Origin: Peptococcaceae bacterium BRH_c23
GTDB lineage: Bacteria > Bacillota_B > Desulfitobacteriia > Desulfitobacteriales > Desulfitobacteriaceae
Assembly: GCA_000961805.1 (NCBI GenBank)
Contig: LADV01000210.1
Coordinates: forward strand, 1 to 33,126
DNA: 33,126 nt
Reading direction: 5' to 3'
Shown one piece after another: positions 4,453 to 20,667 of this stretch; the stretch's first letter is position 1; every line of letters begins with the position of its first letter. The notes below the pieces were generated by a model. It was not told where the DNA came from, ran no database searches, and saw only the letters and a list, made by a program, of their open reading frames with translations. The translations under genes were made by a program, and so were the position numbers.

Positions 4453-4509
4453 TCTCGTCCCTGAATATTCGTAGCCCTATTGATCATAATCAAAAAAGGG
4501 GTGGTTAGA

Positions 4510-5253
4510 ATGGCTTCATTGACTAAGAAATTCATTTCTGAATTAATTGGAACTTGGATGCTTGTTACGGTTGGTGCAGGATCTGCGGCAGTGACCCTGA
4601 TGTTGGCTGAAGGGGAAAAAAAAGCTTCCACTTTTAATATCGGTATTGGTGCTTTAGGGGGTCTGGGAGATTGGTTAGCCATCGGTTTGGCTTTTGGAAT
4701 TGTAATCGCGGCCGCCATTTACATCTTCGGACCGGTATCGGGAGCTCACATGAATCCGGCGGTTACAATTGCTCTCTGGATTAGTAAACGGTTTCCTACT
4801 GGAGAACTGATTCCCTATCTGGTGGCTCAATTTGTTGGTGCTTCTCTCGGTGCGGTCACAATATTGGCTATGCTCGGCAGCAAAGGGGCAACAGTCGGCG
4901 GTTTGGGTGCTCCCGGGCCTTTTCCGGGAATGAGCCTTACCGGCGTCTTCATTGCAGAACTGGTCGGAACGTTTATTCTGATGTTAACCATTATGGGGAT
5001 TGCGGTCGATAAAAGAGCCCCTCAGGGTTGGGCTGGTTTGATCATCGGACTTATTGTTGCGGGCTTGATTACCACGATGGGAAACATTTCCGGACAAGGA
5101 ATAAACCCTGCTCGTACTTTTGGACCGGTTTTTGTTGATAGCTTGGTGGGTGGTCCCAACGGTTGGTCAGTTTACTGGATTTATCTTGTAGCTCCCATTA
5201 TCGGTGCGATCTTGGCGGTCTGGCTTTATGATGGTGTAGTGAAGGAAGATTGA
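4510..5253 (+). CDS. MIP/aquaporin-family channel
   Basis: Integral membrane channel of the major intrinsic protein family, 247 residues with six predicted membrane segments. Both pore half-helices are intact: SGAHMNPAVTIAL (NPA at 82-84) and GQGINPARTFGPV (NPA at 199-201, with the selectivity-filter Arg at 202). The insert between the first two helices (GEKKASTFNIG) is longer than in classic aquaporins. ATG at 4510 is chosen because GGGGTGG (4497-4503) lies 6 bases upstream. It follows the sigma-54-controlled DUF2193 gene with no terminator between and is closed by a terminator at 5290-5323, so both are probably co-transcribed. A small uncharged solute such as methanol, formamide or glycerol is possible; the sequence does not decide it. 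Confidence 0.93.
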   Translation: MASLTKKFISELIGTWMLVTVGAGSAAVTLMLAEGEKKASTFNIGIGALGGLGDWLAIGLAFGIVIAAAIYIFGPVSGAHMNPAVTIALWISKRFPTGELIPYLVAQFVGASLGAVTILAMLGSKGATVGGLGAPGPFPGMSLTGVFIAELVGTFILMLTIMGIAVDKRAPQGWAGLIIGLIVAGLITTMGNISGQGINPARTFGPVFVDSLVGGPNGWSVYWIYLVAPIIGAILAVWLYDGVVKED

Positions 5254-5323: not shown

Positions 5324-5401
5324 GAAAGAAGGCTATCGGTAGAAAAATACAGTTAACCGCAACAACAGTTTCCTACTTTGCCAGGGAAAGGTGATGAATG
5401 T

Positions 5402-6382
5402 ATGCCGAAATTCTGGGTGAAAACAGGCGCCCGTTTACACCTCGGACAATTGGACTTAAATGGCTCGTTGGGTCGTCTTTATGGAGGTTTGGGCTTAGCT
5501 ATTGATCAACCCCAGTTGGAGTTAACAGCGGAGAAGAAAAACGGACTTTGCATTGACAGTCCGGATTCTGAGAGAAGCAGGGTTAGGCTCATTGCTCAAC
5601 AGTATCTCGAACATTATTCCTTACCTGGCGCTAAAATCAACATCATTCAGTCCCTGCCAAGTCACAGTGGTTTGGGTTCCGGGACTCAGCTCGCTTTGGC
5701 ACTGGGTTTTGCTCTTACCCGTCTATACGGGTTGCAGCCGTCCCTGCTGGAACTGGCAGGGGTGACAGACCGGGAGGGAAGCCGCTCCGGAATCGGGGTA
5801 GCGGGATTTGAACAGGGAGGGTTTCTGGTTGACGGGGGAAAACCGACCACGGCCAGGGACAAAATGAATTTAACGGAGACAAAATTTCACGTTCCTCCGC
5901 TGCTCACCCGCCTCCCATTTCCTGAGGAATGGGCTGTCATTATAGCTATTCCTAATAAGGAAGAGAAAATGTTTGGTAGTAAGGAAGAAAAGGTCTTTAA
6001 GGGTATGTTGCCGATGGAGGAGCATATATCCGGTAAAATTAGCCGGCTTCTTCTTCTGAAGTTGCTGCCCGCATTAATAGAAAAGGACTTGGAACACTTT
6101 GGGCAGGCTGTGACTGAAATTCAGGAGTATTTAGGCGACTATTTTACCCCGGTGCAAGGGGGACGGTTTGCTACGGCCCAAGGTGCTCTAGTGGCGGACT
6201 ACATGTTATCTCAAGGGGCTGCCGGAGTAGGCCAAAGCTCTTGGGGGCCAACGGTATACGGGTTTACGGATCAGAAGAATTTAGCTGCCTTAGTAGAAGG
6301 CACTCGCAATTTTATGGATAACCATGGTCAAGTGTGGGTGGCGCGGGCGGTAAATCGTGGCGCAGATTGGGGTTGGCGTTAG
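5402..6382 (+). CDS. mptG: beta-ribofuranosylaminobenzene 5'-phosphate synthase
   Basis: First committed enzyme of the methanopterin branch: it joins 4-hydroxybenzoate or 4-aminobenzoate to PRPP with decarboxylation, giving the ribosyl-arylamine part of H4MPT. 326 residues, GHMP-kinase fold. The N-terminus VKTGARLHLGQLDLNG and the Gly-rich motif PSHSGLGSG (86-94) are typical of the family, as is the C-terminal GQSSWGPTVYGF. ATG at 5402 is preferred over an in-frame TTG at 5378 because GGAAAGGTG (5385-5393) is correctly spaced. It opens the H4MPT gene block. Its aryl substrate could come from the PabA-PabB fusion at 23811-25847. Confidence 0.92.
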   Translation: MPKFWVKTGARLHLGQLDLNGSLGRLYGGLGLAIDQPQLELTAEKKNGLCIDSPDSERSRVRLIAQQYLEHYSLPGAKINIIQSLPSHSGLGSGTQLALALGFALTRLYGLQPSLLELAGVTDREGSRSGIGVAGFEQGGFLVDGGKPTTARDKMNLTETKFHVPPLLTRLPFPEEWAVIIAIPNKEEKMFGSKEEKVFKGMLPMEEHISGKISRLLLLKLLPALIEKDLEHFGQAVTEIQEYLGDYFTPVQGGRFATAQGALVADYMLSQGAAGVGQSSWGPTVYGFTDQKNLAALVEGTRNFMDNHGQVWVARAVNRGADWGWR

Positions 6383-6440
6383 TTGTACTAACGGAGTTAT
6401 TTTTAGATTAGGGGAATCAGGAGAGGAGTATAGGGGCACG

Positions 6441-6989
6441 ATGACTGAACAGGGGAAAAGGATTGAATCAAGGATAGCCTGGGGGATAACAGGAGCCGGA
6501 CATTTTTTGTCCTCGTGTTTCGATATTCTGCTCGCCATAAAACAGGCCGATGTATTTCTTTCCAAAGCAGCCAGAGAAGTTCTCCCCGACTACGGCTTAT
6601 TTGAAAAGCTAAAACAGTCCCAATATCGTATCTTTTTAGATACAAGCGCCGGTTCCCGGCCGATTACAAAACTGTATACGGGAGAGTACAAGCTGGTTGT
6701 CATCGCCCCGGTGACTTCAAATTCTATTGCCAAGATGGCGAGTGGAATAGCAGATAATTTAATTACGAATCTATTTGCCCATGCCGGTAAGTGTCAAATC
6801 CCGACGATATTGCTGCCTTGTGATTCCAAACCGGAAATTAATTCGTTAACACCGCGGGGAGATCAGGTTATGGTCCATGCACGAAAGATCGACCTAGAAA
6901 ATATAAACCGTTTAGCGGGCTGGCCCGGTGTGACACTGGTTGCCGACCCGGAACAATTAAAATCCCATTTGCATACTTTTCTTGTTTAA
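6441..6989 (+). CDS. dmrB: flavoprotein, probable dihydromethanopterin reductase (acceptor)
   Basis: 182 residues of the HFCD/flavodoxin-like flavoprotein superfamily. It starts MTEQGKRIESRIAWGITGAGHF, giving the Rossmann-like GITGAG turn, and carries the FMN-site segments DTSAGSRPITKLYTGEYKLVVIAPVTSNSIAKMASGIADNL in pieces typical of archaeoflavoprotein/DmrB-like proteins. DmrB reduces dihydromethanopterin to H4MPT, the last step of cofactor synthesis, and is found in H4MPT clusters of some bacteria and in methanogens. An in-frame GTG at 6357 overlaps mptG; ATG at 6441 sits after AGGAGAGGAG and is preferred. No other H2MPT reductase was seen in the block, which supports this role. Confidence 0.75.
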   Translation: MTEQGKRIESRIAWGITGAGHFLSSCFDILLAIKQADVFLSKAAREVLPDYGLFEKLKQSQYRIFLDTSAGSRPITKLYTGEYKLVVIAPVTSNSIAKMASGIADNLITNLFAHAGKCQIPTILLPCDSKPEINSLTPRGDQVMVHARKIDLENINRLAGWPGVTLVADPEQLKSHLHTFLV

Positions 6990-7081: not shown

Positions 7082-8431
7082 ATGGAGAAATATTTATTGA
7101 TTACCGGAACTATTGCTTATCGGGCTCTTATAAAATTAATCGAAAAAACAAATCTTGAGATGCTGTTTGAGGTCAAAGCCCTTAAATGCACGGTGGCAGC
7201 GCTGATGACGACGGACTTCATCGCGCGCAAGCTTGGCGAGGAGCTTCTTTTAAGCGGAGAGGAAATTATCGTAATTCCTGGTTTGAGTCAAGGTTCCCTG
7301 GAACCTATCGTTCAAGCTACGGGCTGCCAAGTCCGGAGAGGCCCGGCTGATTTAAAGGATCTGCCTCCTTTTCTAAAAGGAGAGCAGTACCCGAACCGTT
7401 CCACTCCGGAACCCGAACAAGATCAGATGACTTCACCTATCCAGATTCTCGCTGAAATTGTCAATGCCCCTAGGATGAGCCTATCCCAAATTGTAGAAAG
7501 AGCTTACTACTACCGGGAGAGCGGAGCCGAGATCATCGATATCGGAGGGGATGTCGATCAGCCCTTTCCCCATCTGCGGGATGTTATCCGAACCCTTAAA
7601 GCGGAAGGCTTTAAGGTAAGTATTGACAGCCTCCAAGAAGAAGATATTCTGGCAGCGAATCGGGCCGGAGTGGATTTAGTGCTCAGCTTGAACTCGAACA
7701 ATCTGGAGCTGGCTAAAATTCTGGATTGTCCGGTGGTGCTAATTCCTGATGATGGGGAAGACTTAAGTTCTCTGTACCGTAACCTGGAGACATTGACCAA
7801 GTGGAATACGCCCTGTATTCTCGACCCTATTCTACCTCCTTTGACGATGGGTTTGGTCGAAGGCATCAGCCGGTACCGCAAGCTCAGACGAGATTTTCCG
7901 GAATGCCCTTTGCTTATGGGTTTGGGAAATGTGACAGAACTCATTGATGCAGACAGCACGGGAATTAATGCTCTGATGGTTGGTATGGCCACCGAGCTTA
8001 ACGTGAATTACATCCTTACGACGGAAGTAAGCCACCGGGCCCGGGGCGCAGTTAGGGAAACAAGTCTGGCCCGAAAGTTGATGTATCGTGCCATCACGGA
8101 GGGAAGGATACCCAAGCATCTGGATTATAGCTTATTAACCATTAAAGATCCTTTTGGCAATTCGTATGAGGCAGCAGAATTAAGGGAGATGCAGGCGGAG
8201 ATTAAGGATAAAAATTATCGTATTTTTGTGGATGACCGCTTTATTTACATTTTTAACGCTTTTATTTTCTTTCAGGGGACTTCTGCGCAAGAACTTTTTT
8301 CCCGGCTCAGTATTCAAGATTCCAATCATGCCTTCTATCTTGGCCGAGAGTTAGGGAAAGCGGAGATGGCTTTGCGTTTAGGCAAAAAATATGTGCAGGA
8401 TGATCCGCTGCGTTGGGGGTTATATCAGTGA
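7082..8431 (+). CDS. dihydropteroate synthase-like protein of the H4MPT pathway
   Basis: 449 residues. An N-terminal domain of about 120 residues (starting MEKYLLITGTIAYRAL) precedes a DHPS-like TIM barrel: MSLSQIVERAYYYRESGAEIIDIGGD, then VSIDSL, a DDGED turn, CILDPILPPL and LLMGLGNVTELID. It matches the DHPS-related family shared by methanogens and H4MPT-using bacteria. The presumed role is condensation of the pterin pyrophosphate with beta-RFA-phosphate, but for this long family the reaction is less certain than for folate DHPS. ATG at 7082 follows AAGGTG with 8 bases spacing. The next gene begins 31 bases downstream, so they are co-transcribed. Confidence 0.82.
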   Translation: MEKYLLITGTIAYRALIKLIEKTNLEMLFEVKALKCTVAALMTTDFIARKLGEELLLSGEEIIVIPGLSQGSLEPIVQATGCQVRRGPADLKDLPPFLKGEQYPNRSTPEPEQDQMTSPIQILAEIVNAPRMSLSQIVERAYYYRESGAEIIDIGGDVDQPFPHLRDVIRTLKAEGFKVSIDSLQEEDILAANRAGVDLVLSLNSNNLELAKILDCPVVLIPDDGEDLSSLYRNLETLTKWNTPCILDPILPPLTMGLVEGISRYRKLRRDFPECPLLMGLGNVTELIDADSTGINALMVGMATELNVNYILTTEVSHRARGAVRETSLARKLMYRAITEGRIPKHLDYSLLTIKDPFGNSYEAAELREMQAEIKDKNYRIFVDDRFIYIFNAFIFFQGTSAQELFSRLSIQDSNHAFYLGRELGKAEMALRLGKKYVQDDPLRWGLYQ

Positions 8432-8462: not shown

Positions 8463-9080
8463 ATGATTCTTGAAACTATCCTTTCGTCTATCAGTCATGA
8501 TGGTATTGTGAATTTTGCTCCGATGGGCTTGCACATTTCCGATACAGATCTCGAACGCTCTCCAGTCAAACGGATCGTTTTCCGCCTTTATCCAGGTTCA
8601 CAAACTTACGAGAATCTGAAAGCGACAGGACAGGGCGTTATCAACTTCACGGACGATGTTTTGGTTTTTGTGGAAACAGCTCTTTACTCTGGCTGCCCGC
8701 CATCTGTGCCTTCCCAAAAAGTTCGACCACCGAGTATGGCGCATGCGAGTACAATCTGGGAATTTACGGTTACCCGTTTTGATCCATCCACCGAACCGGC
8801 TTTCCTAGAGGGAAAGATTGAGCATCGTGAGCAAAGGGGAGGATTTGCCGGATTCTGCAGGGCTCAAGGGGCCGTTTTGGAAGCGGCTATCGCAGCGACC
8901 CGCTGGCAATGGCTGCCAATGGGGAAAATAATCGATCCTTGGCCCGTGTGGTTGGAATTGGTTCAGAAAACGGGCGGAAACCGGGAACGGGAGGCATTTA
9001 ACAAAGTAGGCAGCTTTTTGGTCGGTAAGGGAATTCAGGTGCCGATAGTTTCCGGGGACGGAAGAAAAGCAAGCTTGTGA
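8463..9080 (+). CDS. DUF447 family protein (flavin-reductase-like split barrel)
   Basis: 205 residues with no membrane segment. The N-terminus (SISHDGIVNFAPMGLHISD) and TGQGVINFTDDV resemble the FMN-binding split barrel of flavin reductase-like proteins; DUF447 genes recur in H4MPT clusters of bacteria and in methanogens. The function is not established. RBS AGGTGA precedes the ATG. A dead relative on the opposite strand at 385-600 aligns without gaps to residues of about 53-106. Confidence 0.82.
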   Translation: MILETILSSISHDGIVNFAPMGLHISDTDLERSPVKRIVFRLYPGSQTYENLKATGQGVINFTDDVLVFVETALYSGCPPSVPSQKVRPPSMAHASTIWEFTVTRFDPSTEPAFLEGKIEHREQRGGFAGFCRAQGAVLEAAIAATRWQWLPMGKIIDPWPVWLELVQKTGGNREREAFNKVGSFLVGKGIQVPIVSGDGRKASL

Positions 9081-9145: not shown

Positions 9146-10009
9146 ATGAAAAAAATCTTAATTCATCTCGAATCAGATTCTAAAGCGAGTGTCTTTGATC
9201 AGATTACGGCCTACGATGCCGGAGCGGATCAGGTGTTGGCCTATGGAGGGGTTCAGCTGGAGGAAGTTGCGAATCTTGTGTACGGGGCAATCTTTACCCG
9301 GGGCGGAGAAGGATTGCGCAATACGGCCGTATTTATAGGCGGCACCCAGGTGCCGACGGCGGAAAAGCTGATGAGAAAAGTCCTTGACACGTTTTTTGCG
9401 GATTTCCGGGTCTCGGTGATGTTTGATGCCAATGGCTGTAATACGACGGCGGCCGCTTTAGTGCATAAAATTGCTCGGGGGCGGGATCTTAAGGGCAAGA
9501 AAGCTCTGATCCTGGCCGGTACGGGTCCGGTGGGGATCCGGGCGGCTACGCTGCTGGCGCAGGAGGGATGTGAGGTATTCCTTTCTTCGCGTCAACTTGC
9601 GCGTTCTCAGGAAGTTTGCAAGCACATGGAGGAAAATAACGGTGTAAAAGTAAAACCTGTAGAAGCAGCCAGTCCTGAGGATGTGGAAAAAATCTTAGCC
9701 CAAGGAATTAACATTGTGGCCAGTTGCGGTGCCGCGGGTGTGCAACTGCTGGAGCAGGCGGCGTGGGCTTCTGCCCGTTCGCTGGAAATCATTGCGGACA
9801 TTAATGCGGTAGAACCGTTAGGCGTGGAAGGAATGAAAGTTACGGACAATGGCAAGGAACGGGAAGGGAAAATTCTGTACGGTGCGATTGCGATCGGCAA
9901 CTTGAAAATGAAAGTGCACCGCGCTGCCGTTCAGGCTTTGTTTGAGCGCAATGACCAGGTTTTAGATTTTTCACTTATTTATGCCTTGGCTAAGAAAATG
10001 GAGGCCTAA
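9146..10009 (+). CDS. mtdB: NAD(P)-dependent methylene-H4MPT dehydrogenase
   Basis: Oxidises methylene-H4MPT to methenyl-H4MPT with NAD(P)+. 287 residues, the family's usual length. The N-terminal substrate part shows TAYDAGADQVLAYGGV and VMFDANGCNTTAAALVHK; the Rossmann fold has ILAGTGPVGIRAATLLAQEG followed by the NADP-side SSRQ. MtdA and MtdB cannot be separated by eye; mtdB is chosen because every neighbour belongs to the H4MPT/MFR route. GGGAGGG precedes the ATG, and the following ATP-grasp gene starts 2 bases after the stop. Confidence 0.9.
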   Translation: MKKILIHLESDSKASVFDQITAYDAGADQVLAYGGVQLEEVANLVYGAIFTRGGEGLRNTAVFIGGTQVPTAEKLMRKVLDTFFADFRVSVMFDANGCNTTAAALVHKIARGRDLKGKKALILAGTGPVGIRAATLLAQEGCEVFLSSRQLARSQEVCKHMEENNGVKVKPVEAASPEDVEKILAQGINIVASCGAAGVQLLEQAAWASARSLEIIADINAVEPLGVEGMKVTDNGKEREGKILYGAIAIGNLKMKVHRAAVQALFERNDQVLDFSLIYALAKKMEA

Positions 10010-10011
10010 AA

Positions 10012-11223
10012 ATGTTCCTTCTTGTCGGGGCAAGCATCAGAGCACTGATGGAGTCCGCTGTGGAGTCAGGCTACCCGGTCAGGGGGATTGATTTCTTTGG
10101 AGATTTAGACACCCGGCGGTGTGGAAAAACCGTGGGCATCGTGAATGACCTTGGTTTGGCTCCGACCGTGAAAAATTTGCTGCAGGTTGCCCGAGGCTTG
10201 ACTTGTCAAGGACTGGTCTATGTTTCCGGACCGGAAAACCACCCCGAGGAATTAACTTTCTGGGAGGAGCGTGGCTTGTTGTGCGGGAACGGGGTTTCTG
10301 CATTACAGCAGGTGCGGGATCCGTGGCAACTCAGGCAGGCCCTTTCTGAAATTGGGATCGCGATGCCCGAATTTTATCGCGTGGAACAGTGGAGCCCGGA
10401 TGAGATAGGGAAAAAATGGCTTCTGAAACCCCTGAACAGGGGCGGGGGACACGGGATTGTCGAATTGCCCCAGGAAAAGGTGGATGCTCGGGCGCGGATC
10501 TCCGGCTTAGGGGATCCGTCCCGGTATATTGTCCAGGAATATATTTCCGGTATTCCGGCTTCAGTCACCTTCTTGGCGGACGGACGACAGGCGGTTGTGT
10601 TGGGGACCAGCCGTCAGTTGACTGGAATACAGGGGTCTCAGCCTTTTATCTATGCCGGAAATATTGTGCCATTCGATAGCTCATTCCTACCGGGGCTGAG
10701 GACTTTTGAAGAGGATTTGATCCGCATCAGTCAACACCTTGCCTCAGCTTTTGGCTTAAGAGGGGTTAACACCCTGGATTTTATAGTTAACTCGAGCGGG
10801 ATTTGGGTTCTGGAATTGAATCCTCGTTGGTCAGCTTCAGTGGAACTGATTGAGAAGTGGAGGGGAGAACGTTTGTTTTCCCCTCATATTGCCGCTTGTA
10901 AAGCAAAGGGACAGAATTCGTTCCCCCCCAGCGGAGACAACCGTAAGCCAGTTCACAAGCAGGGCTGGCAAGGTTTTTGGGGAAAAAGTATCGTCTATGC
11001 CCAATCCTCTTTCCAAGTCACGGCAGATTTGGATATCCAGTCTCTATACGAGCAGGGAGTGCGCGATATTCCGCCCGCCGGAACCAGGCTGGAGAGCGGC
11101 CAGCCCATCTGTACCGTTTTAAGCGGCGCTGCGAGTGATGCCGCTTGTTGGCAAAGCTTGCAAGTAAAGTCAGAATGGGCCCGCCAGGTTTTTGGTGATA
11201 TCAAGTCATCCGCTGCCCGCTAA
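10012..11223 (+). CDS. ATP-grasp ligase of H4MPT/methanofuran clusters, substrate unknown
   Basis: 403 residues. The N-terminal pre-ATP-grasp half is MFLLVGASIRALMESAVESG..., followed by an ATP-grasp domain with KWLLKPLNRGGGHGI (ATP-lysine and Gly-rich loop), YIVQEYISGIPASV and the metal-site stretch NTLDFIVNSSGIWVLELNPRWSASVEL. Such ligases join an acyl phosphate to an amine. It starts 2 bases after mtdB and sits before the formylmethanofuran dehydrogenase genes, so a cofactor side-chain (for example glutamyl) ligase is likely. It is one of three ATP-grasp proteins in the block, and its exact reaction is not known to me. Confidence 0.8.
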   Translation: MFLLVGASIRALMESAVESGYPVRGIDFFGDLDTRRCGKTVGIVNDLGLAPTVKNLLQVARGLTCQGLVYVSGPENHPEELTFWEERGLLCGNGVSALQQVRDPWQLRQALSEIGIAMPEFYRVEQWSPDEIGKKWLLKPLNRGGGHGIVELPQEKVDARARISGLGDPSRYIVQEYISGIPASVTFLADGRQAVVLGTSRQLTGIQGSQPFIYAGNIVPFDSSFLPGLRTFEEDLIRISQHLASAFGLRGVNTLDFIVNSSGIWVLELNPRWSASVELIEKWRGERLFSPHIAACKAKGQNSFPPSGDNRKPVHKQGWQGFWGKSIVYAQSSFQVTADLDIQSLYEQGVRDIPPAGTRLESGQPICTVLSGAASDAACWQSLQVKSEWARQVFGDIKSSAAR

Positions 11224-11278: not shown

Positions 11279-11659
11279 ATGGGCATTATTTCCGGTTTAC
11301 TAATTACCGTGCGAACCGGCCGGCAAGGTGCCACGATGGAGAACGGGAAATTAACCCCGGAATACCTCGAAGAAACCTCGACGCTGGCGATTAATCCCGA
11401 GGATTTCGCTGCCCTGGGAATGGCTCCGGGCCAAAGAGCTCGGTTAAAAAGCCCTGATGGTGAAGTCATCGTCACCTGCCGGCCCACGGAAGGGCCGCGC
11501 GGATTATTCTTTCTGCCGCTGGGCCCGACAGCTAGTCAATTAATCAGTGGAGAAACACATGGAACAGGAGTTCCGGATTTTAAGGGATTACTCGTAACGT
11601 TAGAACCAGAACTTGAATTTTCTCAGCAGACTAATCTAGGGGGTGAGATACGTAAATGA
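11279..11659 (+). CDS. fwdD: formylmethanofuran dehydrogenase subunit D (molybdopterin dinucleotide-binding)
   Basis: 126 residues forming only the C-terminal molybdopterin-dinucleotide-binding barrel of the formate dehydrogenase-like catalytic chain. It contains LTPEYLEETSTLAINPEDFAALGMAPGQ and VTCRPTEGPRGLFFLPLGP, and TGVPDFKG near the end. Together with subunit B it rebuilds the split FdhA-like subunit that carries Mo or W. A strong AAAGGAGGGG precedes the ATG. The stop overlaps the subunit B start as ATGA (11656-11659), implying coupled translation. Confidence 0.9.
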   Translation: MGIISGLLITVRTGRQGATMENGKLTPEYLEETSTLAINPEDFAALGMAPGQRARLKSPDGEVIVTCRPTEGPRGLFFLPLGPTASQLISGETHGTGVPDFKGLLVTLEPELEFSQQTNLGGEIRK

Positions 11660-12963
11660 GTATCTATCAGGATGTCGTATGTACTTTCTGCGGGAGTCTT
11701 TGTGACGACCTTGAAGTCGAAGTGGCAAACAACAAAATTGTAAAAGTGAAACGGGCTTGCCTAATTGGTCGAAACAAACTTATGCACGCCCAATCAGATT
11801 TGGCTTCGGTCCGTATCAACGGTCAACCCGCTACCCTGGATGGAGCATTGAATGAAGCGGCACGGATATTATCAAAAGCCAAATCCCCGCTTGTCTACGG
11901 TTTATGTAGTACGACAACCGAAGCGCAGCGTGAGGCTGTCGTCTTGACCGAACTGATCGGGGGAATCGTGGATAACCCTTCGTCCTACTGACACGGTCCG
12001 GGCGTTGTTGCCCGCCAGTCAGTTGGACTGGCTTCATGTACGTTAGGCGAAGTAAAGAATCGGGCAGACCTCTTAATTTACTGGGGTTGCAATCCTATGG
12101 AAGCCCATATGCGCCATCTTAGCCGCTATTCTGCGTTATCAAAAGGGCTTTTCGTTCCGGAAGGCCGCAAAGGTCGGAAAGTGGTCGTGATTGATGTACG
12201 ACCGACAGCAACATCAAAACAGGCCGATATATTTTTACAGGTCACTCCTGGACAAGACTTTGAGATTGCCACAGTCTTACGCGCCTTAATCAAAGGTTTA
12301 CCTTTAGAGGGGCTTAGTGAATCCAGTACCGTCGCTGGTGTACCTTTGTCCAAGTGGCGGGAATTGGTTGCCTTAATGAAGGAGTGCCATTACGGGGTTG
12401 TCATGTTTGGAATTGGTCTTACGCAGAGCCGGGGGAAAGAGTTAAATTTGGAACAAATTAATACACTGGTCGGGGAAATGAATGAGTTCACTCGCTTCTA
12501 TGCTATTCCAATGCGTGGTCACGGTAATGTCAATGGCAGCAATCAGGTTTTGACCTGGCAAACTGGGTATCCCTTTGCTGTGAATTTGAGCCGTGGGTAT
12601 CCGCGTTACAATCCGGGAGAATTCAGTGTTATGGATCTGTTGGTTCGACGGGAGGTAGATGCCGCCCTAATCATTGCTACAGACCCTGGGGCTCATCTTC
12701 CTAAAGCTGCAGTTGAGCATCTTAAAAATATTCCCATCATTGTCTTGGAACCCCATGAAAATTGGACTACCTCATGGGCCAACGTAGTGATCCCTGTAGC
12801 ACCTGCAGGGGTAGGGGCTGCAGGTACGTTTTACCGGATGGATAGCGTGGCTTTGCATGTTAAGAAGTTGGTGGATTTCCCGTTTCCTTCCGATCTAGAG
12901 GTGGTAAAATCCATAAAGGAGAGAATAACGGATGTTAAAGATTATCAACGGGCAAGTTTATGA
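11656..12963 (+). CDS. fwdB: selenocysteine-containing formylmethanofuran dehydrogenase subunit B (TGA at 11989-11991 read as Sec)
   Basis: Catalytic Mo/W subunit, 435 residues when TGA is read as Sec, the normal length of FwdB. C9-x2-C12-x3-C16-x18-C35 (VVCTFCGSLCDD...RACLIG) binds the proximal [4Fe-4S] cluster. The frame then reaches SSY-TGA-HGPGVV; the TGA is codon 112, the place of the metal-ligating Cys/Sec in methanogen FwdB, and the same Sec-His-Gly-Pro motif occurs in Sec formate dehydrogenase. After the TGA the same frame goes straight into conserved FwdB sequence (SCTLGEVKNRADLLIYWGCN, then RHLSRY) without an indel, so this is recoding, not decay. A naive annotation splits it into two genes (11656-11991 and 12097-12963). 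A SECIS-like hairpin lies at 12014-12032. The gene overlaps fwdD by 4 bases and fwdA by 32. No selA/B/C/D is in the window. Confidence 0.93.
12014..12032 (+). promoter_or_regulatory. bacterial SECIS-like stem-loop in fwdB
   Basis: GCCAGTC (12014-12020) and GACTGGC (12026-12032) form a perfect 7-bp stem with the 5-nt loop AGTTG. The loop has G as its second base and starts 29 nt after the TGA, which fits what I know of bacterial SECIS rules (a G among the first two loop bases, roughly 16-37 nt spacing, 4-16 bp stem). A competing hairpin, CGGGC (11999-12003) with GCCCG (12010-12014), with TGAC/GTCA able to pair at its base (11989-11992 with 12018-12021), overlaps it. Confidence 0.75.
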
Positions 12964-14584
12964 TCCAGCAAACGGGGTCAGAGGAGAGCTAAAAGACATC
13001 TGCATTGAGGGCGGTAAAATTATCGCAGAGCCTCACTTTCCTCAAAACCACAAGGGCGATATTGAGGTGATCGATGCCGCTGGATGTGCCGTGATGCCGG
13101 GTGGCGTCGAGATTCATAGCCACTTAGCGGGCCCGAAGGTAAATACCGCACGCATGATGTGTCCGGAAGACCACTATGATCATGTTCATTCCAAGACGCT
13201 CGCCACGCGCTCGGGAACGGGATACACAATTCCAAGTACATTTTTAACGGGCCAGTTATACTCGAGGCTTGGTTATACGACAGTCTTCGAAGCGGCTGTT
13301 CCGGCCTTGCTGGCCCGTCATGCGCACGAAGAACTTCAAGATACACCCTTACTTGACGCGGGTTTTTTTACGCTCATGGGCAATAACTACATGATGATGA
13401 AAGTCCTTGGTGAACCTGAGTCTGAGAAACGAAAAGAGCGACTAAGGGATCTTGTAGCTTGGCTTTTACGGAGCAGCAAAGGATATGCTGTGAAAATTGT
13501 GAACCCGGGTGGCATCGAAAGCTGGAAATGGAGCCAGGGTTCGGTCAATCTCGATACCCCCGTTCCTCCGTTTGGCGTGACGCCGCGACGGATGCTCTTG
13601 GAATTGGTTGACGTGGTGGAGGAGTTGCATCTGCCCCACCCCATACACCTTCATTCCAATCACCTCGGCGAAGCCGGAAATGTGCAGACGACGTTGGAAA
13701 CCATGCGTACGCTTGAAGGCCGCCGCGTACATTTGACCCATATGCAGTTTCACTCGTATGGCGCAACAAAAAAAGGGGGCATTGCATCAGGAGCGCCCCA
13801 GATAGCGGAGTACCTAAACCAACACCCTGAATTTACGTGTGACGCTGGGCAGATTGTTTTCGGTCCAGTGACCACGATGACTGCGGATTCTCCCATGCAA
13901 TTCCACCTTCACCAGTTAACCGGCAACAAGTGGGCGAATGCAGACGTTGAGATGGAGTCGGGGGCAGGCATCGTTCCCTTAATCTATCGCCCGAGCAATC
14001 TGGTAAATGCCATCCAATGGTCCATTGGCTTAGAACTTCTCCTGTTGGTCAAGAATCCGTGGCAGATTTTCCTGACGACTGATCATCCCAATGCGGGACC
14101 GTTTACAGCTTATCCACAAATCATCCGCTTACTTATGGATGCAGACTATCGCAGGGCACGGATGGCAGAACTAAACCCGAAAGCTGTTCGTTATACTTGC
14201 TTGGCGGAATTAGACCGAGAATACACGCTCGATGAAATCGCCATCATTACCCGTGCCGGTCCGGCAAAAGCTCTGGGACTTTACCGTAAAGGGCACTTGG
14301 GGGTTGACGCTGATGCGGACGTGGCCATTTATCGGCTTCAACAAGATAAGGAAGCGATGTTTTCTCGCCCAGCCTATGTCTTAAAAGATGGAGAGGTTAT
14401 CGTTCGCGAGGGACAGGTGATCAAGAATGTTAGGGGCCGGACACTATTTGTCCAGCCTGAGGGCTCACAGAAATTGCCTCCAGATCTGGCTGATGATTTT
14501 GCGAAATTCTACTCGATTGCGCTCTCGAATTTCGCCGTCGAAGAAGAGTATGTTGAGCGCCCGGAGGTGATCCCATGTATTTAA
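12932..14584 (+). CDS. fwdA: formylmethanofuran dehydrogenase subunit A (amidohydrolase)
   Basis: Zinc amidohydrolase-like subunit that interconverts formate + MFR and formyl-MFR. 550 residues. Visible metal residues: HSH (H62, H64) in GGVEIHSHLAGPKVN, the lysine expected to be carbamylated (about K188, in YAVKIVNPGG), the His cluster HPIHLHSNHLGE (about 236-245), HLTHMQFHSYG, and the catalytic Asp in TTDHPNAGPF. All are intact, so the hydrolytic site should be active and could be tunnelled to the Sec site of FwdB. ATG at 12932 has AAAGGAGAG upstream and lies inside the end of fwdB. The stop overlaps the ftr start by 10 bases. Confidence 0.94.
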   Translation: MLKIINGQVYDPANGVRGELKDICIEGGKIIAEPHFPQNHKGDIEVIDAAGCAVMPGGVEIHSHLAGPKVNTARMMCPEDHYDHVHSKTLATRSGTGYTIPSTFLTGQLYSRLGYTTVFEAAVPALLARHAHEELQDTPLLDAGFFTLMGNNYMMMKVLGEPESEKRKERLRDLVAWLLRSSKGYAVKIVNPGGIESWKWSQGSVNLDTPVPPFGVTPRRMLLELVDVVEELHLPHPIHLHSNHLGEAGNVQTTLETMRTLEGRRVHLTHMQFHSYGATKKGGIASGAPQIAEYLNQHPEFTCDAGQIVFGPVTTMTADSPMQFHLHQLTGNKWANADVEMESGAGIVPLIYRPSNLVNAIQWSIGLELLLLVKNPWQIFLTTDHPNAGPFTAYPQIIRLLMDADYRRARMAELNPKAVRYTCLAELDREYTLDEIAIITRAGPAKALGLYRKGHLGVDADADVAIYRLQQDKEAMFSRPAYVLKDGEVIVREGQVIKNVRGRTLFVQPEGSQKLPPDLADDFAKFYSIALSNFAVEEEYVERPEVIPCI

Positions 14585-15480
14585 ATGGTGTAGAAATCGA
14601 AGAAACGTTCGCCGAGGCGTTTACGATGCGTGGCACAAGAGTGACAGTTACTGCGGTAAACGAACGATGGGCTCGCTACGCCGCCTTGGCAGCCACCGGC
14701 TTTGCGACGTCAGTTATCGGATGTGGGGTCGAAGCTGGGATTGAGGGACCTACAGCGAGTACGCCGGATGGCCGGTTCGGCTTGGATTGCCTCTTTTTTG
14801 CCTTCTCGAAAGAAGACATGGAAAAACACCTTATCAAACGTATCGGTCAGGCGATTATGACCACCCCGACTTCAGCCTGCTTCGACGGAGAATTACCGGA
14901 ATTTCAGGGGCAAGGGGATACCTTGAACAAAGTCAATATCGGAGGAAAGCTGCGTTTTTTTGGAGATAGTTATCAAGCGAGTAAAGTTATTGGAAATCAG
15001 CGCTATTGGCGGATTCCAGTTATGGATGGCGAATTTTTAGTCCAAGAGGAGTTCACCGTAGCCAAAGCGATTGGCGGCGGGAATTTCCTTATCTTGGCTG
15101 AAAGCGCGGAGGCAGCCCTTCTGGCCGCGGAAGCTGCGGTAGAGGAGATGCGTACCATTCGTGGTGTTATCCTTCCCTTCCCGGGCGGTGTGGTCCGCAG
15201 TGGGAGTCAGGTTGGGTCAAACTACAAATTTCTTTCCGCCTCGACGAATACAGCCTATTGTCCAACGATTCGAGGACGCCTTGATAGCCTGCTTCCCGAT
15301 GGAGTCAATGCCGTGCTGGAGATTGTCATCGATGGACTTACCTTCGAGGCTGTGAGCCGGGCGATGCAGGTGGGGATCAACGCAGCGACTCAAGTGCCGG
15401 GCGTCCAGAGGATTACCGCAGGCAATTACGGAGGACGTTTGGGTAAACATCATTTTCATCTCCAAGAGATCTTGATTTAA
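14575..15480 (+). CDS. ftr: formylmethanofuran:H4MPT formyltransferase
   Basis: Moves the formyl group between MFR and N5 of H4MPT. 301 residues, the usual size. Family segments: IEETFAEAFTMRGTRVTVTA at the N-terminus, SVIGCGVEAGIEGPTASTPDGRFG, IMTTPTSACFDGE, and the C-terminal GVQRITAGNYGGRLGKHHFHL. GGAGGTGATC immediately before the ATG lies inside fwdA, so the two are translationally coupled. Its position between subunits A and C resembles the fhc operons of methylotrophic bacteria, where Ftr (FhcD) is part of the complex; whether it is bound here is unknown. Confidence 0.95.
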   Translation: MYLNGVEIEETFAEAFTMRGTRVTVTAVNERWARYAALAATGFATSVIGCGVEAGIEGPTASTPDGRFGLDCLFFAFSKEDMEKHLIKRIGQAIMTTPTSACFDGELPEFQGQGDTLNKVNIGGKLRFFGDSYQASKVIGNQRYWRIPVMDGEFLVQEEFTVAKAIGGGNFLILAESAEAALLAAEAAVEEMRTIRGVILPFPGGVVRSGSQVGSNYKFLSASTNTAYCPTIRGRLDSLLPDGVNAVLEIVIDGLTFEAVSRAMQVGINAATQVPGVQRITAGNYGGRLGKHHFHLQEILI

Positions 15481-15506: not shown

Positions 15507-16391
15507 ATGAAAACGCAAGTGACACTGGTTCTGAAAAAAATCCCCTCTGTGCCGGTGGAAGCAGAAAGTATCAACCCCGAGAATGTCACCGAAAAAGGAA
15601 TTCAGGAGATCGAAAGTATGCTCCTGTGGTGTGGAAATCGCCAAGCAAGGGTCGGCGACTACTTTGATGTCGAGATTGCATCGCTCGAAGAGACTAAGAA
15701 CGGTGTTGCTGATCCTGTGTTTAATTCGTCTAACAAAGGCCAAAAGAATTTGGCAAAGCTTGTGTTACAGGGAGACCTTTCCAAATTCAAGCGGCTTGGG
15801 CAAGGCATGGCCGCAGGGGAAATGGTGATTCAGGGGTCGGTGGGTTTCCACGCCGGAGCGCTTATGCGTGGAGGAACCCTTGTGATTCAGGAAAATGCCG
15901 CTGATTGGCTGGGTGCCCATATGGAAGGCGGGCACATTCGGGTGAAAGGTTCAGTGGGTCATTTTGTCGGATCCGCTTATCGAGGTAAAACGAAAGGAAT
16001 GACAGGTGGCACGATTCTGATTGGGGGTAATGCTGGGCAAATGCTTGGAGCGCGCATGGCCCGAGGGCTCATCGCGGTCGAAGGAGATTGCGGAGACGTG
16101 CCGGGATTTGGCATGATGGCGGGCACGATTCTCATTCAAGGAACTCCAGGGATTCGGGTCGGTGCGAAAATGCACCGCGGCACCGTGATTCTTTTTCAGC
16201 CGAAAGTTCTTCTGCCCACGTTTTATTACAATTGTACCTATAAGGTTCCCTTTTGGAGTTTATTGTATAATCAACTTATCCGGGAAGGCTTCTCGCTGCC
16301 AGCTTCATCTCAAGACGTGTCCTTTCGCCGCTACAGTGGTGACGCTAATGAAGGGGGAAAGGGGGAAATTTTAATATGTCTTTGTCATTAA
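15507..16391 (+). CDS. fwdC: formylmethanofuran dehydrogenase subunit C
   Basis: Structural subunit with the right-handed beta-helix of the glutamate synthase alpha-subunit C-terminal domain. 294 residues. About residues 85-230 are repeats of the pattern G-x3-G-x2-M-x2-G, e.g. VGFHAGALMRGG, DWLGAHMEGG, GQMLGARMARG, VPGFGMMAGT and GIRVGAKMHRG. In FwdABCD complexes it packs on subunit A and closes the internal channel. RBS AGGGGG precedes ATG at 15507. It overlaps mch by 16 bases. Confidence 0.93.
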   Translation: MKTQVTLVLKKIPSVPVEAESINPENVTEKGIQEIESMLLWCGNRQARVGDYFDVEIASLEETKNGVADPVFNSSNKGQKNLAKLVLQGDLSKFKRLGQGMAAGEMVIQGSVGFHAGALMRGGTLVIQENAADWLGAHMEGGHIRVKGSVGHFVGSAYRGKTKGMTGGTILIGGNAGQMLGARMARGLIAVEGDCGDVPGFGMMAGTILIQGTPGIRVGAKMHRGTVILFQPKVLLPTFYYNCTYKVPFWSLLYNQLIREGFSLPASSQDVSFRRYSGDANEGGKGEILICLCH

Positions 16392-17365
16392 AAACAGTGC
16401 CTGAACTTAGCCCCAATCAACAAGCGCTTCCGATCGTCCAAGACCTCATCGCTCGCCGTGAACAGCTTCAGGTGGCAGTCCACCTAGTCAGTGGGACCAC
16501 GGTGATTGACTGCGGGATCAATGCTCCAGGGGGGTGGGAAGCAGGGGTCGCCTTCGCTTCGATATGCCTGGGGGGCCTCGCACAGGTGAAGATGCACTGG
16601 GCAGATTTTGGCGGGTTGCGCTGGCCTGCGGTCGAAGTAGTAACCGATCATCCCATCCGTGCTTGCCTGGCCTCCCAATATGCCGGCTGGTTTATTAAAA
16701 AAGACAAGTTTTCGGCTATGGGATCCGGGCCTGGGCGAGCTGTGGCTCATACAGAAGAGCTGTTTGCCAAGTTAGGCTATGAAGATCCCTCCCCGGTTGC
16801 CATCCTTTGCTTAGAAAACCGCAAACTTCCTACTGAAGCGGCTGTGGAGATGATCGTTGAGAAGTGCGGGTGCGAACCGTCTAATCTCTATATTTTAGTC
16901 GCGCCTACAGCGTCGCCGGTTGGTTCGGTCCAAATCGCGGCTCGTGCGGTGGAAACCGGTTTGCATAAGCTCATGGCGCTGGGGTATGACCTGGGAGCTA
17001 TTGAAAGCGGATGGGGCATTTGCCCGATTCCGCCGGTTGCTGCCGATGATCTCAAAGCTTTGGGTCGAACAAACGATGCCGTGCTTTATGGCGCTACCGT
17101 TCATTATCATCTGCGCGATGACGACGAGAAGCTGGCCTCTCTAATTGGGCAGATCCCGTCACTGGCCTCGCGTGATTACGGCGAACTGTTTGGGAAACTG
17201 TTCGAGCGGTATGGCTCGTTCTATGACATCGATCCGCTCTTATTTAGTCCGGCGGAAGTGTGGTTGAGTAATCTGCAAAGCGGTCGTTCCTTCCATGCCG
17301 GTTCTGTCCGTTCAGACCTGCTAACCTCGTCTTTTGGGCTTGAAGCGCAGGACAAAGATAGTTAA
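16376..17365 (+). CDS. mch: methenyl-H4MPT cyclohydrolase
   Basis: Interconverts methenyl-H4MPT and formyl-H4MPT between the MtdB and Ftr steps. 329 residues, close to the family's usual 320. Recognisable stretches: TVIDCGINAPGGWEAG, SICLGGL, the long conserved DHPIRACLASQYAGW, FSAMGSGPGRA and GWGICPIPPVAADD. AAAGGGGGAAA precedes the ATG within the end of fwdC, so translation is coupled. Confidence 0.95.
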   Translation: MSLSLKTVPELSPNQQALPIVQDLIARREQLQVAVHLVSGTTVIDCGINAPGGWEAGVAFASICLGGLAQVKMHWADFGGLRWPAVEVVTDHPIRACLASQYAGWFIKKDKFSAMGSGPGRAVAHTEELFAKLGYEDPSPVAILCLENRKLPTEAAVEMIVEKCGCEPSNLYILVAPTASPVGSVQIAARAVETGLHKLMALGYDLGAIESGWGICPIPPVAADDLKALGRTNDAVLYGATVHYHLRDDDEKLASLIGQIPSLASRDYGELFGKLFERYGSFYDIDPLLFSPAEVWLSNLQSGRSFHAGSVRSDLLTSSFGLEAQDKDS

Positions 17366-17384
17366 AGCAAGAGGGGACAAAAAT

Positions 17385-18293
17385 ATGCGTCAAAGAGTGC
17401 GGATGGGGATCATGGGAACAGCAAAAGGACCTCACATACAAGCTTTAGCCACAGCCCTGCAAAACAGAGGTGCAGAAGTTAGCTTCGTTTCCCCTCAGCG
17501 CCTGACATCGTTTATCCCGGAGCCCGCAACCATCATCACGGGCTCGGATGGGTCTCGAAAAAACCTCGGGGATCTGGATGCCTTGCTTGTCCGTTCGCTG
17601 CCTGGCGGATCCCTGGAACAAGTGATTTACCGGGTCGATGTACTGCATCGGTTGGAAAAACTCGGCTTAAAAGTCATTAATCGGGCTGCAGTCTTGGAAA
17701 AAACAGTTGACAAGTTCTATACGTCTGCTTTGTTAGCCGATGCGGGCTTGCCGGTACCCAAAACCGTCGTGACCGAAAGCTTCGATCAGGGGATGGAAGC
17801 TGTGAGGAAGATGGGGGCAGTGGTTGTGAAACCCCTTTTTGGCTCCCTCGGAACAGGCATGGTCATGGTCGAGGATCCGGAGGTGGCTTACCGCGTTTTT
17901 CGAGCCCTGGAGATGGGGCGCTATGTATATTATTTACAAGAATTTCTACCGCATAATAATGAAGATTACCGACTCTTTGTTGTCGGTGGGGAAGTAATCA
18001 GTGCGATGCGTCGCCGTGGAGAAAATTGGAAGACTAATATCGCCTGCGGTGCGATTGCGGAATACGTAGAACCGGATCCCGTCCTGAGCCAGTTAGCCCT
18101 TAAAACGGCAGAGCTTTTAGGAGCAGATTACGTTGGTGTAGATATACTAATCAGTCACGGGCAACCCTATATTATTGAAGCCAATGGGATTCCAGGCTGG
18201 ACTGGCCTGCAATCGGTGACTAATGTCGACATTGCCGGGGTTCTGGCAGAGTATGCCATTCGTCAGGTGCAATTGGTGATTAATAAAGATTAG
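17385..18293 (+). CDS. RimK-family ATP-grasp ligase, probable H4MPT:glutamate ligase (MptN-like)
   Basis: 302 residues. RimK-like architecture: N-terminal RMGIMGTAKGPHIQALATAL, then the ATP-grasp domain with VVVKPLFGSLGTGMVMVEDP, YYLQEFLPHNNEDYRLFVVGGE, SAMRRRG and the metal site GVDILISHGQPYIIEANGIPGWTGLQ. Archaeal MptN adds L-glutamate to tetrahydromethanopterin, and RimK-like genes recur beside mch in H4MPT-using bacteria. The exact acceptor here is inferred. An in-frame TTG at 17334 lies within mch; ATG at 17385 after GAGGGG (17371-17376) is preferred. Confidence 0.82.
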   Translation: MRQRVRMGIMGTAKGPHIQALATALQNRGAEVSFVSPQRLTSFIPEPATIITGSDGSRKNLGDLDALLVRSLPGGSLEQVIYRVDVLHRLEKLGLKVINRAAVLEKTVDKFYTSALLADAGLPVPKTVVTESFDQGMEAVRKMGAVVVKPLFGSLGTGMVMVEDPEVAYRVFRALEMGRYVYYLQEFLPHNNEDYRLFVVGGEVISAMRRRGENWKTNIACGAIAEYVEPDPVLSQLALKTAELLGADYVGVDILISHGQPYIIEANGIPGWTGLQSVTNVDIAGVLAEYAIRQVQLVINKD

Positions 18294-18306: not shown

Positions 18307-19266
18307 ATGCCAAAGGATGATTTTTGTTGGGATATTGCTTGGGCTGCGCAAGCGGCCTGCATCTTAGAAGCCAATGCGCCTAAAGTGGGGAATGTAAACC
18401 GTTTGAATGATTTTGCGGACTGTTCCCTGGAAGATTTCCAGATGAGTGCGGTGGCTATTGCCGAGCCGTTGGGTCGGGTTAAAGCGCTTGGGGTTGGACA
18501 AACCATCCGAGCGGCGATCCAGGCAACGCGCCAGGCGGTTCCGACGAATACAAATTTAGGGATGGTCTTACTTCTGGTTCCTTTGGCGATGGCCTGGAGC
18601 CTGATGGAACAAAGTTGCGAGGAAAAGAATGGCGCTGGGGAGAAAAAAGAGCCGCAGCGTGAGGGCTGGGCGAAGGAGATAGCCAATGTCCTCACGGGGC
18701 TTACGGCGGAAGATACCCGCTGCGTCTATGAAGCCATTCGCCTAGCTACCCCTTCAGGCATGGGGCACTCGGAAAGCCAGGATGTTTACCAGGAAAATTC
18801 CCCGGATATTACATTATTGGAAGCCATGCGTTTAGCTGCTGGCTGGGACATGGTTGCCCTAGAATATGTGAACCAGTTTCATACGGTCTTAGAGGTGGGG
18901 CTTCCGGCCTTGGAACGGGCTCTGAACGCCGGTCTATCTTTACCCCATGCGACTGCCCATACACACCTCTTCCTTTTGAGCCAATTCCCGGATACACTAA
19001 TTGCCCGCAAAGTGGGTTTAAGCTTAAGTGAGACAGTTCAAGCGAGGGCTCAAATGATTTGGGAAGAAGGAGGGTGGCGGACAGATGCCGGACGGGCGCA
19101 GGCCGCAGAGTTTGATGCCTGGTTAAGAGAAGATGGGCATCACCTGAATCCTGGCTCGACAGCGGACCTAATTGCAGCCATCCTTTTTGTTTTATTTCTA
19201 GAAAATGGGCTCGGGCTTTGGAAGAAAAACCGCCGGGGCAAGGTGAACTTGCAAACGAGTGAATAA
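18307..19266 (+). CDS. triphosphoribosyl-dephospho-CoA synthase-like (CitG/MdcB family) protein
   Basis: 319 residues, mainly helical, resembling the CitG/MdcB family: WAAQAACILEANAPKVGNVNR at the N-terminus, NTNLGMVLLLVPLAMA, the conserved LTAEDTRCVYEAIRLATPSGMG and PHATAHTHLFLLSQFPDTLIARK, and LNPGSTADLIAAILFVLFLE. Classic members make the phosphoribosyl-dephospho-CoA prosthetic group of citrate or malonate lyase, but no lyase gene is here; the branch in H4MPT clusters has an unproven role. Given its chemistry (ribosyl transfer to a triphosphate cofactor), a step in building the H4MPT ribosyl-phosphate side chain is one idea. GC-rich and collinear with its neighbours. Confidence 0.8.
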   Translation: MPKDDFCWDIAWAAQAACILEANAPKVGNVNRLNDFADCSLEDFQMSAVAIAEPLGRVKALGVGQTIRAAIQATRQAVPTNTNLGMVLLLVPLAMAWSLMEQSCEEKNGAGEKKEPQREGWAKEIANVLTGLTAEDTRCVYEAIRLATPSGMGHSESQDVYQENSPDITLLEAMRLAAGWDMVALEYVNQFHTVLEVGLPALERALNAGLSLPHATAHTHLFLLSQFPDTLIARKVGLSLSETVQARAQMIWEEGGWRTDAGRAQAAEFDAWLREDGHHLNPGSTADLIAAILFVLFLENGLGLWKKNRRGKVNLQTSE

Positions 19267-20042: not shown

Positions 20043-20667
20043 GGGTCTTTGGCCCCAGATAGACGCCCTGCGTGTGACCGGTCTCTAAAAGTTCAGCAAG
20101 TCGTTCCGGATAAAGACCATTCAGAAACCAAACCGGAAGATTGGGCGAGAGAGCTTCATGAAAATAAGCGTCGACGTCCGGTTCTTTGACCTCTGGATCA
20201 ATATCAACGCTCTTTAACAAGACGAGGAGCGCAGCATCCAGCCGTTTGGCAAGATAGGCCGCGATGGAATCTGAGGTGACGCTCCATGACCGGGGTAGGT
20301 CCTCCGGTGGTACGAGGCTTATGTAACGGGAGCACAGGAGGATCTGGGGGCTAGAGGGGAAGCTCGATTGCTGAAAAGACACTGGAGCGGCGAGGTCAGT
20401 TAATCTGCTGCCGGGAATAAACGACTGAAGGAGGTAAGCAAACTGATCCATGGCTAACAAGGCCATAAAATGACAGGTCGGCTCACTGAGGTTTAATCGT
20501 TCTCCATAGTCGCGGACACTGTCTGCAAAGGGTCCTCCGCCGGGTACGATGAGCAAAGGGTGTTTTGCGGAAAAACATTGCAGGATGTTTCCGAGTGGCT
20601 TGAGGGCTTGGCCGTCTTCCTGGTAAACCAAACTTCCCCCCAGTTTGATGATGATGGGTTTTTGCAA
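19990..20667 (-). CDS. mfnE: [5-(aminomethyl)furan-3-yl]methyl phosphate kinase
   Basis: Amino-acid-kinase family enzyme that phosphorylates the aminomethylfuran phosphate to the diphosphate used in methanofuran synthesis. About 225 residues. Motifs: PIIIKLGGSLV (phosphate-binding), LLIVPGGGPFADSVRDY, and the C-terminal VTSDSIAAYLAKRLDAALLVLLKSVDI. An ATG at 20676 directly abuts the ribosome site AGGAGG (20682-20677); the TTG three codons later (20667) has normal 9-base spacing and is chosen. It is the only minus-strand gene of the block and has its own promoter (20736-20764). Its 3' end overlaps mfnB by 53 bases. Confidence 0.85.
   Translation of the reverse strand: MQKPIIIKLGGSLVYQEDGQALKPLGNILQCFSAKHPLLIVPGGGPFADSVRDYGERLNLSEPTCHFMALLAMDQFAYLLQSFIPGSRLTDLAAPVSFQQSSFPSSPQILLCSRYISLVPPEDLPRSWSVTSDSIAAYLAKRLDAALLVLLKSVDIDPEVKEPDVDAYFHEALSPNLPVWFLNGLYPERLAELLETGHTQGVYLGPKTPTSFGKKVPLVQSPVEK

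Follow-up and report, generated by a model that had tools for sequence, protein, structure and literature searches.

Formylmethanofuran dehydrogenase subunit B (FwdB) containing selenocysteine (Sec) is known from archaea (Methanopyrus kandleri, Methanococcus), and the available text of PMC13188914, in which FwdB is described for methanogens, lists it as CAA67419.1 (from M. kandleri by its reference). Here, we analyzed a 33,126-nucleotide stretch of Peptococcaceae bacterium BRH_c23 (contig LADV01000210.1), hereafter the window, whose positions serve as coordinates throughout. It harbors an fwdB gene with one in-frame TGA, which is predicted, with high confidence, to be read as Sec by means of a downstream bacterial selenocysteine insertion sequence (SECIS) element, so that the product is likely a tungsten- or molybdenum-selenocysteine formylmethanofuran dehydrogenase. 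Like the archaeal protein, it would carry Sec in a U-H-x-P motif at the ligand position of the metal. However, its host is a bacterium and the SECIS-like hairpin lies in the coding region just after the UGA. In archaea, according to passages of PMC13188914, such elements are mostly located in the 3'-untranslated region; in our tree, which was built without archaeal Sec-FwdB, the nearest relatives of the window gene are bacterial.

Within bacteria, a Cys-type fwdDBA-ftr-fwdC operon has been described in Hakuba Actinobacteria (PMC7325909, in part). The order FwdD-FwdB-FwdA-Ftr-FwdC is the same as here, and fwdE and fwdFG, which were not recognized in the cluster here, are reported absent there, but the site corresponding to Cys118 is occupied by Cys in Hakuba and by predicted Sec with a SECIS-like hairpin here; in addition, biosynthesis genes of the methanofuran and methanopterin type are part of the present clusters, and that account reports some of them as unobserved in Hakuba. 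The Sec-containing formate dehydrogenase H of bacteria (1aa6_A) matches the window protein weakly, over residues 104-207. Enzymes of this FdhF type have a U-H-G-P motif followed by a SECIS element within the coding sequence. They belong to another family with other partner subunits, whereas in the present complex FwdA would feed in formate derived from formylmethanofuran. Finally, the A and B subunits of the hydrolase Fhc (Methylorubrum extorquens, 6s6y) are homologous to those encoded here, and we take the C and Ftr subunits to be homologous as well. Fhc is without the D subunit and the metallopterin (PMC11656701, in part), whereas FwdD and the ligand position, a TGA read as Sec, are both present in the window. 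The gene has the following features:

11656..12963, + strand: fwdB, formylmethanofuran dehydrogenase subunit B, 435 residues read through one internal TGA (TIGR03129, 8rja_B, 5t5i_B)
11989..11991, + strand: in-frame TGA, predicted selenocysteine codon, residue 112, equivalent to Cys118 of 5t5i_B
12000..12013, + strand: first hairpin after the TGA, with four of five pairs invariant in the eight TGA genes
12014..12032, + strand: SECIS-like hairpin, 7-bp stem, loop AGUUG, 29 nt past the UGA, -11.2 kcal/mol

The fwdB frame contains exactly one internal stop, the TGA at codon 112, followed by His-Gly-Pro as the earlier note on this DNA had read it, and its terminal stop is also TGA. The read-through product covers model positions 1-421 of 421 of TIGR03129 (FwdB) with 534.9 bits (cut-off 327.8) and matches the solved FwdB chains 8rja_B (E 2.5e-129) and 5t5i_B (E 9.6e-123). 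Alignment with archaeal FwdB and bacterial FhcB, which that note had proposed, placed codon 112 on Cys118 of 5t5i_B, the next residue on His119 and R287 on Arg288, while FhcB (6s6y_B) aligned best only over residues 241-425. The N-terminal cysteines C9, C12, C16 and C35 are all kept relative to 5t5i_B, and were thus correctly described as intact. In 5t5i_B these four cysteines presumably hold the [4Fe-4S] cluster, and Arg288 is likewise taken by us to have a role at the site. The Cys or Sec metal ligand and His119 are named as site residues in the accessible part of PMC11656701. Ordinary open reading frame (ORF) calling cuts the gene into pieces of 111 and 288 amino acids, and the predicted splitting by automated annotation is indeed found in databases: the D. 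lacus entry P0075 is a 284-amino-acid fragment of FwdB, and 14 of the 120 listed homologues begin after codon 112.

The same TGA recurs in relatives. A scan of named-species genomes (80 of 89 confirmed loci kept) revealed it in D. lacus (L001, 90% identity), D. metallidurans (L002, 95%) and Moorella sulfitireducens (L004, 69%). At E 1e-60, protein searches recovered FwdB from 5 of 82 genomes in the class of G002 and from 12 of 398 sampled from its phylum, which added four TGA copies: L117 (a second copy in the D. lacus genome, G001), L118 (G003), L119 (G062) and L120 (G314). As L004 and L123 are the same M. sulfitireducens gene, the nine TGA rows represent eight distinct genes in seven genomes, window included (Desulfosporosinus, Moorella and other relatives), each with 316-328 codons open downstream of the TGA. 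Across all 99 locus rows, the site codon is TGC or TGT in 76, TGA in 9, Gly in 10 (nine planctomycete rows and one second copy in L026), His in 2, Arg in 1 and Phe in 1; among the 120 listed proteins, the residue is Cys in 101 and Arg in 5, and 14 do not reach the site. D. lacus harbors two Sec-type operons (L001 and L117), whereas the two copies in G003, which lie in similar operons, have TGA (L118) and TGT (L003), respectively. Sec and Cys isoenzymes are said to coexist in an archaeal system as well, to judge by the title of a 1997 report by Vorholt.

The hairpin at 12014-12032 lies within the limits of a bacterial SECIS model given in the available text of PMC13188914 (loop of 3-9 nt, stem of 4-16 bp, G in loop positions 1-2, spacing of 16-37 nt, at most -7.5 kcal/mol), its loop being 5 nt with G at position 2. 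A segment at or below -9.7 kcal/mol was present in all nine TGA rows (eight genes), in 1 of the 76 TGC/TGT rows (L006) and in the Arg row L121. When each gene was randomly recoded with synonymous codons at the codon usage of the window (3000 trials per gene), the observed energy was reached in 7 to 24 of 3000 recodings for each TGA gene; the Cys genes L003 and L005 were unremarkable, with 1218 and 1434. Constraint at the RNA level is also evident in codon choice. Within codons 113-128, 9 of 14 invariant residues use a single codon across seven Sec genes, compared to 6 of 193 elsewhere (p = 5.4e-9), and this segment is the top 16-codon window of the gene for such synonymous freezing. With four Sec genes alone the counts are 9/14 versus 23/222 (p = 6.5e-6), and five Cys control sets, two of them overlapping, gave 0/7, 0/8, 3/9, 2/14 and 0/4 at the same codons.

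Two further observations concern this element. One long hairpin including the UGA (66 nt in the window, z -2.7; z -2.1 and -1.0 for shorter cuts) was considered and rejected; this fold is not predicted for L001 and others, and the conserved element is the second hairpin. L006 (7024-7071) is a TGC gene of a Planctomycetaceae metagenome-assembled genome that retains the full SECIS-like hairpin, in a genome with SelA, with no SelD match and with no SelB over the cut-off; it could be a relic.

The evidence for Sec machinery comes from the genomes of the TGA-bearing relatives, not from the window strain's own. In G001-G004, tRNA-Sec scored 64.9, 66.3, 64.5 and 72.2 bits, with ARAGORN concurring (SeC, anticodon tca), and SelA, SelB and SelD were over the cut-off in all four; each of these genomes also has at least one SelD copy that itself contains an internal TGA. 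With tRNA-Sec and SelA also present in G062 and G314, these two components occur in all six TGA-bearing relative genomes. Weaker matches to the tRNA-Sec family RF01852 near 50 bits are uninformative, as 5 of 14 control genomes also pass the family cut-off, but tightening to E 1e-10 leaves E. coli and M. jannaschii as the only matching controls. All four components are present in G003, which has both gene types, and in the Cys-type G005. Profile searches of the Cys-type G006 gave SelA but neither a SelD match nor a SelB above the cut-off, and those of the Cys-type G007 gave no match to SelA or SelD. In the Arg-type G019, SelA is present, whereas a search for tRNA-Sec at 1e-10 gave no match. Taken together, the same TGA in relatives, a correctly placed bacterial SECIS-like hairpin and the Sec machinery of the relative genomes support the Sec reading first proposed for this gene, and codon 112 very probably encodes Sec.

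The gene lies in a conserved cluster with the following members:

2859..4388, + strand: DUF2193 protein, early in the conserved cluster
4480..5253, + strand: major intrinsic protein (MIP), aquaglyceroporin family
5378..6382, + strand: beta-RFAP synthase family (methanopterin biosynthesis), TIGR00144 over cut-off
6357..6989, + strand: AfpA/dihydromethanopterin reductase-like flavoprotein, below cut-offs
7082..8431, + strand: dihydropteroate synthase-like protein, TIGR00284 below cut-off
8463..9080, + strand: DUF447 protein
9146..10009, + strand: methylene-tetrahydromethanopterin (H4MPT) dehydrogenase of the MtdB kind, PF09176 at 106 bits, no NCBIfam model over cut-off
10012..11223, + strand: ATP-grasp protein immediately 5' of fwdD, PF02655
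11279..11659, + strand: fwdD, molybdopterin-dinucleotide-binding subunit, PF01568 over cut-off; 2ki8_A, 8rja_D; NF042908 at 67.1 bits, below its cut-off of 175
12932..14584, + strand: fwdA, amidohydrolase subunit, TIGR03121 at 737 bits, over cut-off
14575..15480, + strand: ftr, formylmethanofuran:H4MPT formyltransferase, TIGR03119 over cut-off
15507..16391, + strand: fwdC, TIGR03122 over cut-off; for fwdA and fwdC, the stricter pair NF042911/NF042910 was not reached
16376..17365, + strand: mch, methenyl-H4MPT cyclohydrolase, TIGR03120 over cut-off
17334..18293, + strand: RimK family ligase, MptN-like, TIGR00768 over cut-off, MptN model below
18307..19266, + strand: CitG-family protein, PF01874
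19287..20042, + strand: MfnB-like (methanofuran biosynthesis), below cut-off
19990..20676, - strand: MfnE-like kinase, convergent with mfnB and overlapping it, below cut-off
20795..21829, + strand: ATP-grasp ligase, MfnD-like, below cut-off
21881..22942, + strand: MfnF-like, TIGR03123 over cut-off, MfnF model below
22955..23752, + strand: HisA/HisF-like protein

As several of the biosynthesis genes fall under curated NCBIfam cut-offs, their names denote family resemblances. Around the seven other Sec genes, 17 to 21 window genes recur with their order kept, the shared order being DUF2193-MIP-mptG-afpA-dhps-DUF447-mtdB-ATPgrasp-fwdD-fwdB-fwdA-ftr-fwdC-mch-mptN-citG-mfnB-(mfnE)-mfnD-mfnF; neither DUF2193 nor MIP was matched 5' of mptG in L119, and mfnE was unmatched in L117, L119, L120 and L123. 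The "fhc-like operon" of the earlier note is only half right: the presence of FwdD and the order D-B-A-Ftr-C make it an Fwd operon.

The metallopterin is described as lying between subunits B and D, and its loss in Methylorubrum as tracking the missing D and remodelled B loops (PMC11656701, in part). In our data, FwdD occurs within 8 kb of the site in 9/9 Sec rows, 65/76 Cys rows, 0/9 Gly rows and 0/2 His rows, where the Gly count omits the second copy of L026, as the FwdD nearby belongs to the first, Cys-type copy of that locus. When only rows with at least 1 kb upstream of the site were considered, the numbers were 9/9, 65/71, 0/8 and 0/2, indicating that six Cys rows are truly without FwdD nearby. 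The Phe row L066 and the Arg row L121, both near a contig end, have no FwdD nearby.

Several other features of the cluster were observed. The DUF2193 protein, described by Pfam as conserved in archaea, is encoded next to the aquaglyceroporin-family gene. It has a Cys-rich C-terminus and shares 77-92% identity with its counterparts in seven relatives. It possibly represents a C1 entry step. The mfnB and mfnE-like genes overlap tail to tail by 53 nt, and their aligned ranges also overlap in L001 and L002, though not in L003 and L118. In D. metallidurans, mptN (L002, 15743-16700) matches as two overlapping pieces, which suggests a frameshift or an assembly error. Further downstream, the ORFs at 23778-25847 and 28264-28836 look by eye like fused PabA-PabB and GTP cyclohydrolase I, and it is plausible that they supply methanopterin precursors.

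Some observations weigh against the Sec dehydrogenase reading. In L117 and L118, the loop G is at position 3, one off from the rule. The Cys gene L006 has the same hairpin, with an energy equally improbable under recoding (15/3000), and the Cys set from Chloroflexi/Desulfobacteraceae shows a mild excess of frozen codons (3/9 versus 15/194, p = 0.035). Covariation in the hairpins is weak, as both partners have changed in a single pair and between 58 and 323 of 500 shuffles do as well, and no SECIS family matched the element in an Rfam scan. No FwdE, FwdF or FwdG was recognized within the conserved cluster, whole genomes not having been searched for them: FwdF and FwdG were not among the scanned window genes, and the seven other Sec loci contain no extra ORF of at least 120 amino acids inside the cluster (shorter ORFs were not examined). 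Ferredoxin-type FwdF and FwdG belong to methanogen complexes and do not occur in every Fwd operon. Fae was absent from all six genomes searched, and formaldehyde entry by Fae was accordingly rejected.

If the TGA were a true stop, the gene would be decayed or split and its halves would be remnants or separate proteins. Standard ORF calling does give two ORFs, and databases contain C-terminal fragments of 284-320 amino acids. However, the same codon is TGA in eight genes with long open frames past it, and purifying selection is alike on both sides: dN/dS was 0.116 before and 0.094 after the TGA against L001, and 0.191 and 0.219 against L002 (dS was saturated against three more distant genes). 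As the values past the TGA are close to those before it, this part is maintained as protein and is under purifying selection. Moreover, neither fragment holds the whole site, because the cluster cysteines precede the TGA and the Arg288 counterpart follows it, and the strong RNA-level constraint after the TGA is largely missing from the Cys sets. We thus regard a true stop as highly improbable. Decoding of the TGA as another amino acid, such as Trp by a suppressor tRNA or near-cognate read-through, is extremely improbable, as four TGA genomes encode a tca tRNA-Sec together with SelA, SelB and SelD and the site residue is Cys in 101 of the 120 homologues listed. It would also sit poorly with the ordinary use of TGA in the window, where it is the end stop of 6 of 25 genes, fwdB among them; a reassigned genetic code was ruled out on the same grounds.

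Another alternative is a hydrolase of the Fhc type, lacking redox chemistry and indifferent to the residue at the TGA. That no FwdE, FwdF or FwdG was recognized in the cluster would agree with it, and the ftr-containing gene neighborhood here presumably resembles fhc. A resemblance of that kind is stated for the Hakuba operon in the accessible text of PMC7325909. Nevertheless, FwdD is near all Sec genes and near none of the Gly- and His-type rows counted above, the counterparts of Cys118, His119 and Arg288 and the cluster cysteines are kept, and FhcB aligns best only over the range given above. A hydrolase is therefore very unlikely, and the earlier note's preference for a dehydrogenase over an Fhc hydrolase agrees with the adjacent FwdD and the retained metal-site and cluster residues.

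Under the Sec dehydrogenase reading, SelB bound at the hairpin would deliver Sec-tRNA to the UGA, and tungsten or molybdenum would be bound by Sec112, by a sulfido ligand and by the dithiolenes of two pterins located between FwdB and FwdD. In the direction thought likelier, the MtdB-like enzyme and Mch would oxidize methylene-H4MPT to formyl-H4MPT, from which Ftr would transfer the formyl group to methanofuran, and FwdA would hydrolyze formylmethanofuran to formate inside the complex. FwdBD would then oxidize formate to CO2, with the one [4Fe-4S] cluster relaying the electrons to an acceptor whose gene lies elsewhere. By analogy, the presence of the MtdB-like enzyme, Mch and Ftr suggests oxidation of methylene-H4MPT to CO2, and the reverse, CO2-reducing direction appears less likely. 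We infer the redox activity, its direction and the electron acceptor of this FwdB from sequence.

Arg occupies the site in five of the 120 listed proteins (P0004, P0008, P0010, P0013 and P0018) and in L121, and the Arg proteins group together (SH-aLRT 99) within a set of 18 rows that also includes the group of the window gene. In L121 (G019:C665, 3061-4601, minus strand), fwdB has AGA at the Sec codon and retains the SECIS-like hairpin. The ATP-grasp gene runs directly into fwdB with no FwdD between them, although, with a contig of only 4,628 bases, FwdD may be encoded elsewhere in the genome, and no FwdC was recognized in the 507 nt remaining after ftr. The N-terminal extension of P0008 looks like this ATP-grasp tail translated in a different frame, suggesting the same FwdD-less arrangement. 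From this one locus and one extension, we infer that the Arg lineage may have undergone a Sec-to-Arg change together with loss of the metal cofactor.

In a quick tree of 148 rows with Cys outgroups, the Sec genes occur at several places among Cys rows within one 94-row group, with a minimum of 6 changes among Sec, Cys, Arg and Gly. A single gain of Sec with later losses agrees with the presence of near-identical hairpins at one place; several gains may also have occurred, one of the deciding forks having a support of only 81. The location of the SECIS-like element in the coding region, as opposed to the mostly 3'-untranslated archaeal elements, suggests that Sec was acquired within bacteria after the archaeal-type fwdB. 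In a wider scenario, which we hold with about as much doubt as confidence, anaerobic bacteria would have taken over the archaeal CO2-reducing enzyme, re-invented its Sec with a bacterial SECIS element and then lost it repeatedly at that codon: to Cys, with both isoenzymes sometimes kept, and once to Arg with loss of FwdD, yielding a hydrolase by a route independent of the Methylobacterium Fhc. An apparent acquisition of Sec within bacteria bears on the claim, made in passages of PMC7331816, that the metal ligand was ancestrally Sec in this family.

The earlier note regarded the combination as unusual or undescribed. Its parts are known, and bacterial Cys-FwdB and archaeal Sec-FwdB have already been published, but the bacterial Sec form appears to be unreported: no account of it was found among the papers listed by searches of openly accessible journal literature. 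In the accessible portions of PMC9312934, PMC1242214 and PMC1088965, Sec-FwdB, if mentioned, is archaeal or given without a bacterial case, and PMC7331816 in part speaks of bacterial FwdB as absent. PMC10100899 covers 149 bacterial FwdB representatives from a search that allowed UGA; its available text does not mention bacterial Sec-FwdB, although the set may include such sequences unremarked.

The use of Sec in formylmethanofuran dehydrogenase, presented as a methanogen trait in the parts of reviews seen, would thus extend to Bacteria, among them named strains of Desulfosporosinus and Moorella. The database entries of these enzymes are without their N-terminal third, and redox C1 pathways are thereby hidden from genome surveys. 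As Sec, Cys and Arg versions of one enzyme exist at roughly 65-75% identity to the window protein, with Sec and Cys versions in one genome, what selenium and FwdD contribute to CO2/formate chemistry is directly testable.

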